DNA of 64,000 nucleotides from Polynucleobacter sp. 71A-WALBACH (GTDB lineage Bacteria > Pseudomonadota > Gammaproteobacteria > Burkholderiales > Burkholderiaceae), in assembly GCF_018882365.1 (NCBI RefSeq), contig NZ_JACVOP010000001.1, forward strand, positions 124,001 through 188,000. Reading direction: 5' to 3'. Positions 5,990 through 12,150 of the stretch are shown in pieces (the stretch's first letter is position 1; each line of letters opens with the position of its first letter). A program made the position numbers and the translations under genes. The notes under the pieces are model-generated. The model ran no database searches, was not told the DNA's origin, and saw only the letters and a program-made list of their open reading frames with translations.

Positions 5990-7357
5990 ATGTCAAACAT
6001 AACCGCGATTTCCTACCTCATTTCATCAGTGCTCTTCATCCTCGCCTTGCGTGGATTGTCATCACCAACCACTTCACGTCAAGGTAATACCTTTGGCATG
6101 ATCGGCATGTTGCTTGCCGTGATTACCACCTTCATGATCCCTGACTTTAAGCCAGTCTTCTCATTGATTATTGGCGCCATTGTTGGCGGCGCGATCATTG
6201 GAACGCTCGCAGCCAAGCGTGTGCAGATGACGAAGATGCCTGAGCTCGTTGCGCTCATGCACTCCTTTGTTGGTTTGTCGGCTGTCTTAATTGCTATTGC
6301 AGCGGTATACAACCCAGCTCATGACCATACCGGCGCGCAAAAGATTGAACTCTTTATCGGCGCATTTATTGGTGCAATTACCTTTACCGCTTCTGTAATC
6401 GCTTTCGGAAAACTATCTGGCAAGGTTAGCGGCAAGCCAGTGACATTTGCTGGCCAACATTTACTCAACCTCATCCTTGCTATCGGTATGGTTTCTGGTG
6501 GAGTCATGTACTTCATGACGGGTAGCCATGAAGCATTCTTGGTCATGTGTGCGATCGCCCTGGTATTGGGTGTTACTTTAATTATCCCAATCGGTGGCGC
6601 GGATATGCCAGTGGTGGTATCGATGCTCAACAGCTACTCTGGTTGGGCAGCTGCAGGTATTGGTTTCACATTGAACAATCCAGTATTGATTATTGCAGGC
6701 GCTTGCGTTGGCTCTTCTGGTGCCATTCTGTCTTACATTATGTGTAAGGCGATGAACCGCTCTATCTTGGCAGTGTTGCTTGGTGGCTTCGGTGCCGAAG
6801 CTTCTGCTGGTGGCGCTGATGATGGTGGTCCAAAAAATTACAAAACTGGCTCTCCAGAAGATGCGGCTTTCCTAATGGAAAATGCCGACACAGTTGTGAT
6901 TGTTCCTGGATATGGCTTAGCAGTTGCCCGTGCTCAACACGCTCTGAAAGAATTGACAGAGAAATTGACTCATCACGGCGTAACTGTAAAGTATGCGATC
7001 CACCCTGTTGCAGGCCGTATGCCTGGTCACATGAACGTTCTCTTGGCTGAAGCTGAAGTTCCATACGATCAAGTATTTGAAATGGAAGATATCAATAGCG
7101 ACTTTGGTCAGGCTGATGTGGTGTTGGTGCTGGGTGCAAACGACGTAGTAAATCCTGCTGCTCGCACTCCAGGTAGCCCTATCTTCGGCATGCCGATTTT
7201 GGAAGCTTTCAAAGCTAAAACAATTATTGTGAACAAGCGCTCCATGGCTGCTGGTTATGCCGGTCTTGATAACGAACTCTTCTATATGGATAAAACGATG
7301 ATGGTCTTCGGTGATGCGAAGAAAGTTGTAGAAGATATGGTGAAGTCTGTTAGCTAA
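5990..7357 (+). CDS. pntB: NAD(P) transhydrogenase subunit beta
   Basis: Beta subunit of the membrane transhydrogenase, 455 residues. The N-terminal half has about eight or nine membrane segments. The C-terminal domain III, from about residue 280, binds NADP(H) and shows VPGYGLAVARAQHAL, HPVAGRMPGHMNVLLAEA and VLGANDVVNPAA. It ends in the usual KRSMAAGYAGLDNELFY and DAKKVVEDMVK. The last 117 bases recur in decayed form at 9426-9544. The operon is the likely main NADPH source linked to the proton gradient. Confidence 0.96.
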   Translation: MSNITAISYLISSVLFILALRGLSSPTTSRQGNTFGMIGMLLAVITTFMIPDFKPVFSLIIGAIVGGAIIGTLAAKRVQMTKMPELVALMHSFVGLSAVLIAIAAVYNPAHDHTGAQKIELFIGAFIGAITFTASVIAFGKLSGKVSGKPVTFAGQHLLNLILAIGMVSGGVMYFMTGSHEAFLVMCAIALVLGVTLIIPIGGADMPVVVSMLNSYSGWAAAGIGFTLNNPVLIIAGACVGSSGAILSYIMCKAMNRSILAVLLGGFGAEASAGGADDGGPKNYKTGSPEDAAFLMENADTVVIVPGYGLAVARAQHALKELTEKLTHHGVTVKYAIHPVAGRMPGHMNVLLAEAEVPYDQVFEMEDINSDFGQADVVLVLGANDVVNPAARTPGSPIFGMPILEAFKAKTIIVNKRSMAAGYAGLDNELFYMDKTMMVFGDAKKVVEDMVKSVS

Positions 7358-7393
7358 TGTAAGTAATTTAGAGTTGTAATAGCACTAAACCAG

Positions 7394-7428
7394 AATGGCT
7401 AGTAAGTTAATTTACTAGCCATTTTTTA
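7394..7428 (+). terminator. Rho-independent terminator after pntB
   Basis: A perfect 12-bp inverted repeat (arms 7394-7405 and 7412-7423, core GGCTAGTAA / TTACTAGCC) with a 6-base loop, followed by a T run. It lies 37 bases after the pntB stop and closes the pnt operon. Confidence 0.88.
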
Positions 7429-7452
7429 TGTCGAATATCAAGAAAAACTCTA

Positions 7453-7899
7453 ATGACATTACCTAAAAAAATTTTAATAGCTTTTGCGTTGACGTACTCT
7501 TGGCATAGCCATGCTGAGGACACTCAAAAGCACTATTACACAGATATTCCAGGCGTAGAGGCGAATGTTTTAATCAAAACTACCAAGTCTTGGAATGGAT
7601 CCACACTTCCAGCATACAGCGAAGGTCAGCCTGAAATTACCATCGTGAGATATACATTTGCCCCTGGGGCGTCAATACCGATGCATATGCACCCCGTCAT
7701 TAATGCCGGCGTTTTACTAAAGGGTGAGCTCAATATCCTGACCAAAGCCGGCGAAAAAGTAATAGTGAAAGCAGGCGAACCATTGGTTGAACTTTTTAAA
7801 GAGTGGCATTTGGGCTCCAATCCAGGGACCGAGCCAGTTGACCTAATCATTGTCTATGCAGGGACAGTAGGCACCGCCTTAGTTATACGTGAGCACTAG
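7453..7899 (+). CDS. Secreted cupin-domain protein
   Basis: A 148-residue protein with an N-terminal signal peptide (KK then hydrophobic, cleavage near SHAED, about residue 21) and a single cupin barrel. Cupin motif 1 metal ligands are visible in PGASIPMHMHP and motif 2 is represented around the late LFKEWHLGSNPG. The protein is probably periplasmic and metal-binding; the substrate cannot be told. No strong ribosome site is seen before the ATG. It lies between the pnt terminator and a bidirectional terminator, so it is probably monocistronic. Confidence 0.75.
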   Translation: MTLPKKILIAFALTYSWHSHAEDTQKHYYTDIPGVEANVLIKTTKSWNGSTLPAYSEGQPEITIVRYTFAPGASIPMHMHPVINAGVLLKGELNILTKAGEKVIVKAGEPLVELFKEWHLGSNPGTEPVDLIIVYAGTVGTALVIREH

Positions 7900-7981: not shown

Positions 7982-9250
7982 CTATGCTGCTTTAGCCTTT
8001 AGGTAATTTGCGCGCATTGGACGCAATACAAAGAAGGCAAGAAGTGCTGCGGTTGCATCTAAAGCAATCATGATGGCAAACACTGGGATCCAACTCTCAG
8101 TAACACCATGGATGTAAGCTGCAATTGGGCCACCGATGATGGATCCAACACCTTGAGCCATGTACAAGAAACCATAGTTAGTTGTTGCATGCTTTTGACC
8201 AAAAGTATCTGTCAAGGTTGATGGGAATAAAGAGAAAATCTCACCCCAGCCAAAGAACACGATACCCGACAAAATCACAAACATGACGGGATCAGAGCGT
8301 GTCATTACCCAGAAAAACATTGCTACTGCCTCAAGACCAAATGCAATGGTCATTGTGTATTCGCGTCCGATTTTATCTGATACCCAACCAAATAATGGAC
8401 GTGTCAAGCCATTGGTTACACGGTCAATAGTTAAAGCCAAAGGCAATGCAGCCATTCCAAAAACCATTGCTCCAGTAATGCCAAAATCTTTCGCAAATGC
8501 ACCCATTTGAGAAATTACCATCAAACCTGATGTGGACATCATGGACATCATCAAGAACATCAACCAAAAAACTGGGGTCTTGAGCATTGCTTTAGGAGTA
8601 ACACCTGACGCAGCGGCTTCAATCTGGCCAGCAGTTTGAATACGGTCAGCATGTGGCACTCGAATACCTTGCGCAGCTAGCAGGCCTACGGCGCCAATAA
8701 TGTACCCAAAGAATGTTAAAGTGCCTTGGAGACCAGTCTCAGTGAGGCTGGTAGCGATAGGAAATGTGGTTAAAAGTGCGCCGATACCATATCCAGCGGC
8801 AACCATTCCGACTGCAAAACCTCGGTTATTGGGAAACCAGCGAACCATCAGACCCACAACGCCGATGTACACAATTCCGGTACCCAGACCACCAAGCACA
8901 CCATAAGTGATGTAGAGGTTAGAAACTGTTGTGAGGTTTGCGGAGAGAACCCAGCTTAGACCAGTGAGAATCGTACCAATAGATAGCAAAAGACGAGGTC
9001 CAAATTTATCTACCAAATAACCCTGAAATGGCGAGAAGAAAGTTTGCAGCACAATCAAAATCGAAAAGGTTACCTGCAACTCAGTCAGAGTTACACCAAG
9101 CTGACCCATGATGGGTTTGGTAAATAGCGCCCAGACATACTGAGGGCTTGAAATCGACATCATGCAAATGACGCCAAGGGCAAGCTGCACCCATTTGGAC
9201 TTCAGGGGGTTAGTGCTAGCAGGTGCCGCACTCATTGTTACTGAACTCAT
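7982..9250 (-). CDS. MFS transporter, oxalate/formate antiporter (OFA) family
   Basis: An inner-membrane permease of 422 residues with about twelve hydrophobic segments. It has the OFA-type start of TM1 (VICMMSISSPQYVWALFTKPI), the GYLVDKFGPRLLL MFS loop, and RPLFGWVSDKIGREYTM in the second half. OFA members exchange oxalate with formate or move other small organic anions; the substrate here is unproven. The frame opens at a TTG 6 codons upstream, but the ATG at 9250 has AAGGAG six bases ahead and is the likely start. Inverted repeats lie upstream at 9316-9335 and 9351-9380. Confidence 0.86.
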   Translation of the reverse strand: MSSVTMSAAPASTNPLKSKWVQLALGVICMMSISSPQYVWALFTKPIMGQLGVTLTELQVTFSILIVLQTFFSPFQGYLVDKFGPRLLLSIGTILTGLSWVLSANLTTVSNLYITYGVLGGLGTGIVYIGVVGLMVRWFPNNRGFAVGMVAAGYGIGALLTTFPIATSLTETGLQGTLTFFGYIIGAVGLLAAQGIRVPHADRIQTAGQIEAAASGVTPKAMLKTPVFWLMFLMMSMMSTSGLMVISQMGAFAKDFGITGAMVFGMAALPLALTIDRVTNGLTRPLFGWVSDKIGREYTMTIAFGLEAVAMFFWVMTRSDPVMFVILSGIVFFGWGEIFSLFPSTLTDTFGQKHATTNYGFLYMAQGVGSIIGGPIAAYIHGVTESWIPVFAIMIALDATAALLAFFVLRPMRANYLKAKAA

Positions 9251-9315
9251 ACAAGTCTCCTTATTCAAAATACTAGAATTTTTAAATTCAATCCTTAGGA
9301 GTTCATTGTGTTCCT

Positions 9316-9380
9316 TAGGGCAAGGGGAATCCCTAGCTCAATCACCGCTTTGGTGCATCATGCATTCCATGGATGCACCA
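9316..9380. promoter_or_regulatory. Two inverted repeats upstream of the OFA transporter
   Basis: Two dyads lie 66-130 bases upstream of the transporter ATG. The first is TAGGG-N10-CCCTA (9316-9335). The second is TGGTGCATC-N12-GATGCACCA (9351-9380). Both look like operator sites, but I recognise no specific regulator. Confidence 0.35.
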
Positions 9381-9389
9381 ATCTAGAGC

Positions 9390-9544
9390 AATAAAAAACG
9401 TCTACTCTTTTGGAGCTTCGCAGACTCCATGGCTGCAGGTAATGCCGACCTTGATAGCAAACCTTTTTCTATATAGATAAAACCATGATGGTCTTTAGTG
9501 ATACGAAGAAGGTTGTAGAGGATATGGTTAGGTCAGCTTCTTGA
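9390..9544. pseudogene. Composite relic: groEL 3' flank joined to pntB 3' end
   Basis: Bases 9426-9544 match the last 117 bases of pntB (7241-7357), with many substitutions, a net 2-base insertion and an in-frame TAG. Shared blocks include TCCATGGCTGC and GATGATGGTCTT-like runs. The 35 bases just before it match two pieces of the groEL 3' region: 9390-9411 resembles the groEL terminator arm at 10412-10433 (first 11 bases identical), and 9409-9424 is identical over 16 bases to 10559-10574 inside groEL. Neither part can be translated into a protein. The order groEL-end then pntB-end is what a tandem-duplication junction would leave. Confidence 0.8.
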
Positions 9545-9569
9545 AGATCTACTAGTTGGATTCAAATTT

Positions 9570-9592
9570 AAAAACCGCCCAGAGGCGGTTTT
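9570..9592 (-). terminator. Terminator after the small secreted protein gene
   Basis: A 9-bp stem (AAAACCGCC, 9571-9579, with GGCGGTTTT, 9584-9592) and a 4-base loop. Read on the minus strand it is followed by a T-rich tail. It lies 27 bases past the stop at 9619. Confidence 0.75.
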
Positions 9593-9618
9593 GGTCTGAC
9601 ATAGCGTAAGCAAGAGGC

Positions 9619-9969
9619 CTACCAGCTTCCTTTGCTAGCTTTCTGAATCGAGATAGCCACACTTCCAATAATCAACTTACCCCAGTCTGGGCAGACAACG
9701 ACAGCGCCCCCATTGTATGGAGAAATCGTTTGATATTGACCACCAGAAACCTTCCAACTAGAACCATCGGATGGCTGAAAAGTATCACCAGAGAATCCCA
9801 TAAATGAATAAGGGTTTTTAATAGACTCTCTATAACAAATGATTTGTTTGGTATCGACTGTTTGAGCAAGCGCATTCGATGAATGCAGTCCCACAAATAG
9901 TATGGCCAAAAAAGCCAAGGGCTTAAAAATTTCTTTCGCCCTGCAGATGGAAGAGCAGAATATTTTCAT
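9619..9969 (-). CDS. Small secreted protein of unknown function
   Basis: A 116-residue protein not recognised by sequence. A signal peptide is clear: hydrophobic PLAFLAILFVGL then SNALAQ, with cleavage after ALA near residue 36. The mature part has two cysteines, in IICYRE and VVCPDW, that could form a disulfide. I start at the ATG at 9969, whose bases overlap the stop of the upstream regulator gene (ATGA), implying coupled translation. The frame runs 12 codons further back inside that gene. The pairing with a MarR-like regulator suggests it is that regulator's target. Confidence 0.65.
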   Translation of the reverse strand: MKIFCSSICRAKEIFKPLAFLAILFVGLHSSNALAQTVDTKQIICYRESIKNPYSFMGFSGDTFQPSDGSSWKVSGGQYQTISPYNGGAVVVCPDWGKLIIGSVAISIQKASKGSW

Positions 9970-10313
9970 CGCTTCTTTTGGATTTTTTGCAACAATGCTT
10001 CGCACTCTTTTAGCCTTTTTAGGGCGAGCTTTGTGGGCAGCACAATTTTTACCCGACCATCTTCAGAATCGACTTTGGTAAGCAGTAGATTCTTTGCAAT
10101 TAATTTCTTCAATATGGCATGCAGGGTTGGCTGGGAGGCAATGTCCTCCATAAGCAAAATATCAAGCACTCTTAAGCGATTGTTATCCAACACTGCAGAA
10201 TGCACGGCATTAAGAACTGACACCTCATTGTAAGAAGTAAGTCCATACCGCTTATTGATTGCTACAACTTCCGCAAAAAGCAATAAATACTCTGATTGGT
10301 CATTTTTTTGCAT
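9966..10313 (-). CDS. MarR-like winged-helix regulator
   Basis: A protein of about 115 residues with a winged-helix pattern: helices around NEVSVLNAVHSAVL, a recognition-helix region in QPTLHAILKKLIAKNLL, and a wing with DSEDGRVKIVLPTKLA. This DxDDxR-like wing is typical of MarR proteins, though the protein is shorter than most of the family (about 140). The start at the ATG (10313) is preferred over an upstream TTG at 10358; neither has a clear ribosome site. It overlaps the secreted-protein gene by 4 bases. An 18-bp palindrome 73 bases upstream is a plausible operator. Confidence 0.65.
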   Translation of the reverse strand: MQKNDQSEYLLLFAEVVAINKRYGLTSYNEVSVLNAVHSAVLDNNRLRVLDILLMEDIASQPTLHAILKKLIAKNLLLTKVDSEDGRVKIVLPTKLALKRLKECEALLQKIQKKR

Positions 10314-10385
10314 ATGCAAATGGTATTGTGAATGCCCCGCAAACACCACGACTTTCAATTAAAGTTATTTATGTCACTTTTCATA

Positions 10386-10403: not shown

Positions 10404-10412
10404 AGTACATAA

Positions 10413-10443
10413 ATAAAAAACGCCTGGTCTTTTGAACCAGGCG
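10413..10443 (-). terminator. Terminator of the groES-groEL operon
   Basis: An 8-bp stem CGCCTGGT (10421-10428) / ACCAGGCG (10436-10443). Read on the minus strand it is followed by a run of T from 10420 down. It lies 43 bases after the groEL stop. Confidence 0.88.
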
Positions 10444-10485
10444 TATTTGTTTCTACAGCTTGAGAGCTGAGGAAATTGACGGCAA

Positions 10486-12150
<1,665 letters not shown>

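Follow-up and report, generated by a model that had tools for sequence, protein, structure and literature searches.

The window analysed here, a 64,000-nucleotide stretch of the Polynucleobacter sp. 71A-WALBACH genome, contains the converging genes pntB and groEL and, between them, two sets of accessory genes separated by a broken end of each flank gene. We call the segment from working pntB to the broken groEL end (groEL') unit 1 and that from the broken pntB end (pntB') to working groEL unit 2, and denote the pntB-downstream loci of relatives by L numbers (140 loci, or 141 with the window's own). Only the names cupin, MFS, regulator and integrase were checked against Pfam; Bug, TPR and YQRR, used below, are presumptive labels of our own. 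The features are as follows.

5990-7357, forward strand: working pntB, whose downstream region resembles some cupin-type relatives
7394-7423, forward strand: probable pntB terminator, an inverted repeat as in L011, L045 and L017 (by alignment)
7453-7899, forward strand: gene for a cupin-domain protein, unit 1 content (Pfam PF07883, E 2.6e-10)
7982-9268, reverse strand: MFS transporter gene, unit 1 content (Pfam PF07690, E 1.5e-38)
9251-9389, no strand: MFS-to-groEL intergenic flank of an MFS-type haplotype, in collinear alignment with relatives such as L014 as far as the groEL terminator
9390-9424, reverse strand: groEL', decayed, its terminator arm brought up against C-terminal codons through a small deletion
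9425-9544, forward strand: pntB', a decayed pntB 3' end with frameshift and stops
9571-9592, forward strand: GC-rich terminator after pntB', unlike that of working pntB
9619-10005, reverse strand: sec, gene for a small secreted-looking protein, unit 2 content (no Pfam match at E 0.1)
9966-10358, reverse strand: MarR/SarA-like regulator gene, unit 2 content (Pfam PF22381, E 9.6e-06; at 26.1 bits just below the cut-off of 27)
10420-10444, reverse strand: intact groEL terminator hairpin
10486-12135, reverse strand: working groEL

The initial annotation had described the seam at 9390-9544 as a groEL end running straight into a pntB end. The identities on which its groEL half relied are present in the window's own groEL 3' region (16 bases, 9409-9424 / 10559-10574; 11 bases in the terminator arm, 9390-9400 / 10412-10422), and none of 1000 dinucleotide-preserving shuffles scored as high against that region as either part of the seam (9404-9424, score 33, shuffle maximum 24; 9385-9413, score 31, shuffle maximum 22). 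The scar lacks about 125 bases of groEL that separate its two matches in the intact gene region. The groEL terminator loop contains TCTTTTG, which 60 of 124 relatives also have, as TCTTTTGG, in the groEL 3' end; a later small deletion at this direct repeat can explain the gap.

The pntB half (9425-9544) corresponds to 7240-7357, the last 118 bases of pntB, with 84% identity over 9425-9534 in a search of the own genome (E 1.2e-26) and 80% at full length with gaps included. Two inserted bases, a stop codon within the shifted frame and a terminal TGA where pntB has TAA agree with the frameshift and internal stop that had been noted, and by shuffles and E value the pairwise alignments show identity well above chance. 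Homology extends beyond the seam on both sides: on the groEL side it reaches left past 9390 as far as the MFS gene, and on the pntB side right past 9544, through the terminator, to about 9592. Microhomology at the junction is scant. At the level of sequence, these comparisons confirm 9390-9424 as a decayed groEL 3' end and 9425-9544 as a decayed pntB 3' end in the order of a tandem junction. The 155-base stretch is an inactive scar, and the geometry first proposed holds: two pntB-groEL units in tandem meet groEL end to pntB end, the cupin and transporter genes belonging to unit 1 and those for the secreted protein and the MarR-like regulator to unit 2.

We compared the interval among Polynucleobacter genomes, 177 of 186 of which have a PntB match (counting the window's own genome, 2.33 Mb and 99.94% complete). 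The stretch downstream of pntB was taken from 140 of the 185 other genomes; 45 were left out, 9 of these having no PntB match. The complete pntB-to-groEL interval was available in 124 of the 140 relatives, and the other 16, in which groEL was not reached, give no length. Complete intervals span 63-11,923 bp (median 1674), and 25 of the 124 are shorter than 260 bp. Searched with a set of query proteins taken from the window and from some of the loci, their contents prove modular: the cupin is the only module in five complete intervals (in one of them in two pieces), MFS occurs in 21 of the 140 other intervals and as sole module in two, a Bug-type gene stands alone in 17 intervals of 1160-1190 bp, and a gene for a 263-residue protein (DUF263) accompanies a gene ending in YQRR in 10 complete intervals. 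The remaining intervals hold module combinations, TPR-protein clusters, integrase genes or no query match. Comparison of the flank genes in complete relatives showed that one pntB-end allele accompanies near-empty intervals. The pntB-groEL interval is a gene-exchange hotspot, with alternative contents between conserved flanks.

On the left of the seam, the stretch upstream of the MFS gene (9251-9412) aligns collinearly with L014 across the MFS-to-groEL intergenic region and on into the groEL terminator loop (score 188; best of 200 shuffles 45), and L018 gives a similar picture (139; shuffle best 31). Eleven of the 12 MFS relatives tested score above their own shuffles on this flank, L085 being the exception; in three of them the excess is slight to moderate (L109, 38 vs 32; L092, 37 vs 30; L060, 51 vs 34). 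Beyond the terminator loop the scar runs on into groEL C-terminal codons. Hence the left unit once closed with a real groEL 3' end. An earlier merger, of a cupin with an MFS haplotype, was also considered and rejected: the linker carries no flank remnant (28 vs a shuffle maximum of 27; 30 vs 40).

On the right of the seam, the stub and its downstream region (9425-9625) score best with L023, L025, L035 and L026 (185, 180, 179 and 179), whose intervals measure 154-203 bp; own pntB scores 154 and ranks 39th of 141, and three loci with full intervals (L064, L021, L016) score 176-177. When only the coding part of the stub is compared, the contrast is small: own pntB is tenth of 141 at 80.0% identity, the best being L031 at 82.5%, and some of the top matches (L031, L064) have full intervals. 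The region downstream of working pntB (7358-7460) matches a different set, scoring 89, 84 and 75 with L045, L011 and L017 and no more than 36 with the remaining loci. These three are cupin carriers that share the terminator of working pntB; the cupin carriers L015, L019 and L049 have a pntB downstream region unlike the window's, and the terminator-type pattern also matches L100, a locus without cupin. The two units differ, then, both in pntB terminator and in best-matching relatives.

In its last codons and first downstream bases the stub resembles relatives with empty-type intervals, and a terminator of GC-rich type follows it; working pntB has a different gene end. Six empty-type relatives give a consensus from which own pntB departs at eight coding sites, and at these the stub goes with the relatives six times and with own pntB twice; against three cupin-type rows, one site goes with own pntB, one with the cupin type and one otherwise. 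The gene end TTTCTTAA, which the stub resembles, occurs in nine complete relatives, eight of them with an interval below 260 bp, compared with 3 of 38 for other Ser-ending PntB alleles (47 complete relatives, Fisher p 4e-6). A tree of 42 rows, comprising the stub and 41 of the 141 pntB ends picked as near relatives and best matches, put the stub near L035, L036, L016, L030 and L025, whereas the neighbours of own pntB were L019, L015 and L014. The stub is short and old and has a long branch, and in this tree placing it as sister to own pntB was 20 log units worse and not rejected (AU p 0.152), while a single clade of the stub and eight empty-type rows was 4.9 worse and not favoured (p 0.245). 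We infer that the pntB ends of the two units are different alleles by descent, for which the evidence is good but not conclusive.

Our data point to the seam as, quite probably, the join of two alternative pntB-groEL haplotypes in tandem, with both sets of cargo kept. The starting point is what can be read directly off the locus: both stubs, their order, their contiguity with fitting flanks and the unlike terminators of the two pntB ends. On this basis the left unit would be pntB-cupin-MFS-groEL' and the right unit pntB'-(sec-MarR)-groEL. DNA from a related strain with the left unit would have entered the cell, the roles of donor and recipient and the route by transformation being our reconstruction. 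Homologous recombination within pntB would have taken in one end of the donor DNA; the other, in the groEL 3' end, would have been joined illegitimately to the recipient pntB about 118 bases before its stop. Working pntB would thereby have gained a new 3' end, and the old one would have been displaced downstream as the stub of about 120 bases. This homologous-plus-illegitimate mode of entry is our reconstruction from the scar; entry of a circle by a single crossover would give the same product.

Several observations weigh against this reading. Neither half of the stack (cupin-MFS or sec-MarR) is present singly among the 140 other intervals, none of which contains cupin and MFS together, sec, or MarR, and microhomology at the junction is, as noted, scant. 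Among the relatives compared, whose pntB is at best 90.8% identical to the window's over the upstream part of the gene, no close relative is in the pre-merger state. Of the unit 1 contents, cupin alone occurs in five relatives and MFS alone in two. Elsewhere in the genus, sec and the MarR/SarA-like regulator form a two-gene cassette: of the 20 other genomes with sec, at least 15 have a MarR-type gene beside it, by coordinates away from pntB. The pair may have arrived in the right unit before the merger or after it.

In keeping with such an event, the genome has no mutS1 or mutL match in searches that find one in 11 and 14, respectively, of 14 control genomes (above the cut-off in 11 each), and it contains DprA and ComEC. 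Homology-facilitated illegitimate recombination can add longer DNA as well as very short segments. The process has been described in Acinetobacter, Pseudomonas stutzeri and pneumococcus, with segments of 3-10 bases in the cases that an excerpt of PMC6382021 describes; the same excerpt gives a roughly 100-fold higher transformation by DNA of more than 15% divergence in Bacillus subtilis without MutS or MutSL. Loss of mutS/mutL in part of Polynucleobacter is recorded in PMC5644125 (excerpt).

Comparable seams occur in relatives. In L138 a groEL end is fused to a pntB end, at pntB bases other than the window's. Seemingly the same seam recurs, more decayed, in L058 and L074, and in L139 the groEL end is almost gone. 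The order in L138, L058 and L074 is DUF263-YQRR-groEL' followed by pntB'-Bug, and both halves exist singly, in the 10 and 17 intervals described above. We read this group as an independent stack of the same order as that of the window. In L017, a cupin lies ahead of a Bug haplotype with the pntB terminator kept (176 vs a shuffle maximum of 46). Because of the L138 group, L017 and L064, whole-haplotype stacking has very likely happened more than once. L064 has a lone groEL 3'-end stub about 1623-1750 bases past the pntB stop, between a YQRR-type gene and further genes, and this stub breaks at bases other than those of the window and L138. A separate observation concerns interval positions 216-2772 of L138, a TPR-protein region whose translations contain runs of X, probably reflecting runs of N. 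A 25-base pattern scan for the exact junction of the window gave no match in the GTDB genomes, a set from which the window's own genome is possibly absent.

The initial annotation had put self-duplication first: the stretch between the pntB 3' end and the groEL 3' end would have been doubled in tandem. Different interior genes would then have been lost or replaced in each copy. Such a duplication predicts the observed geometry, with both stubs in the expected order, and it can draw on the tree, in which sister placement of the stub and own pntB was not rejected, and on the coding identity of own pntB, just 2.5 points under the best. Against it stand the unlike terminators and best-matching relatives of the two units, the lack of any gene common to both, and the need to suppose that the left pntB end, together with one or more entire interiors, was replaced afterwards; moreover, the comparable L138 stack consists of two haplotypes known separately. 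For these reasons (terminators and relatives, no common gene, and the separate occurrence of the L138 halves) the addition of a foreign segment, offered initially as the alternative, is the better supported origin, and we regard self-duplication as unlikely.

A further explanation for a displaced pntB end is offered by tyrosine-integrase islands, of which pntB' would be the attR remnant after loss of an island inserted in the pntB 3' end. Twelve of the 140 other intervals contain stubs of pntB ends at E 3e-4 or better, each oriented like pntB itself, and control searches of reversed intervals gave no pntB match and one weak groEL match. This count leaves out L114, whose match at E 6e-3 with a single query is no better than the groEL match in the reversed intervals, and L102, where a contig end interrupts groEL. 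In 9 of the 12 stub-bearing intervals a whole or broken tyrosine-integrase gene (PF00589) directly follows pntB. An integrase gene or piece is present in 13 of the 141 intervals (L012, L040, L056, L061, L070, L087, L117, L119, L123, L124, L126, L146, L150), and in the four of these without a stub the sequence stops early, at the contig end or the limit of the stretch analysed. The integrase of L126 and the broken copy in L061 are identical in their first 60 residues, the displaced pntB end of L040 still precedes a terminator and a piece of cupin, and crossover sites vary among the elements. These loci have the appearance of islands that integrate at the pntB 3' end, where they rebuild the gene and displace the old end downstream, and their pntB ends are probable attachment remnants.

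The stub of L146 begins at the same pntB position as that of the window, which would suit an attR origin for pntB' as well. In the window, however, the stub abuts a groEL end that is contiguous with the MFS-haplotype flank, and no relative of this integrase was found in the interval at E 1e-5 or in the whole own genome at E 1e-60. We rejected an attR origin of the window scar on account of this abutting groEL end and an interval without that integrase family, and consider it very unlikely. Distant integrase copies (56-63% identical) lie about 21-38 kb downstream of pntB in other genomes (G081, G085, G091, G095, G112, G125, G146, G075, G104, G013, G044), and their roughly similar distance from pntB suggests another island site.

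A related but highly improbable scenario has the whole interval mobilised: a pntB-targeting integrase, using its site in the pntB end together with a look-alike in the groEL end, would excise the interval as a circle (with a groEL'/pntB' joint), which would re-enter at pntB in another cell. If true, the scar would be an attachment-site product and interval haplotypes would travel as cassettes. In groEL, about 10 bases at most separate the breakpoints of the window and L138, and the L138 pntB breakpoint lies at the most groEL-like spot of its pntB end, with a best match reached by 2 of 60 shuffles; against the scenario, the pntB breakpoint of the window lies about 60 bases from that spot. An attachment-like core common to groEL and pntB was sought in 125 genomes and rejected as chance-level (on average 53% of shuffles scored as high; 38 of 60 for the window). 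Finally, chance similarity or the remnant of an unrelated gene, to which the mere 35 bases of the groEL-like part might have lent some colour, is refuted by the shuffle controls on both groEL parts, as well as by the E value of the pntB part and the independent groEL'/pntB' junction in L138, and deserves practically no credence.

On the preferred reading, a join of two haplotypes, the scar shows how a swap-type accessory locus can grow by stacking rather than swapping, and its signature, the end of the right flank gene followed by that of the left, is searchable at any hotspot between converging genes. A host without recognisable mutS and mutL also makes addition versus replacement of divergent DNA directly testable.

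The kind of locus is already known from core-gene hotspots and from replacement and additive islands; this site is a new and instructive example, and we found no report of the Polynucleobacter pntB-groEL site in the open-licence literature. Hotspots between core genes turn over by recombination in their flanks, often without recognisable mobile elements, and are commoner in transformable species (PMC5635113, excerpt). The pntB-groEL interval resembles those hotspots, as excerpted, in its conserved core flanks, its turnover of contents, the many intervals without the integrase family searched for and the competence genes of the organism, and departs from them in that the window preserves a frozen intermediate, two versions side by side with broken flank ends between. 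SXT without prfC has the pntB 5' end as its preferred secondary integration site (PMC2297512, excerpt). That element shares with our locus pntB as target, and relatives of the window carry tyrosine-integrase genes directly after pntB; unlike the part of SXT biology that the excerpt covers, the 3' rather than the 5' end is involved, and the window scar is not an element end.

Homology-facilitated illegitimate recombination offers a parallel in mechanism, as one homologous and one illegitimate end would yield the additive geometry of the window; unlike the 3-10 base segments in the excerpted cases (PMC6382021), the mode proposed here is reconstructed from a scar. A structural likeness exists to flexible genomic islands, of which replacement and additive kinds are known (PMC10872708; in Polynucleobacter, PMC5644125; both in excerpt). 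There, too, alternative contents occupy one site between conserved flanks, and the additive islands of Methylophilaceae repeat tRNA-Lys gene ends much as pntB ends recur here. In contrast to the islands these excerpts describe, the repeated ends in the window come from two protein genes, and a replacement-type site has seemingly turned additive by stacking.
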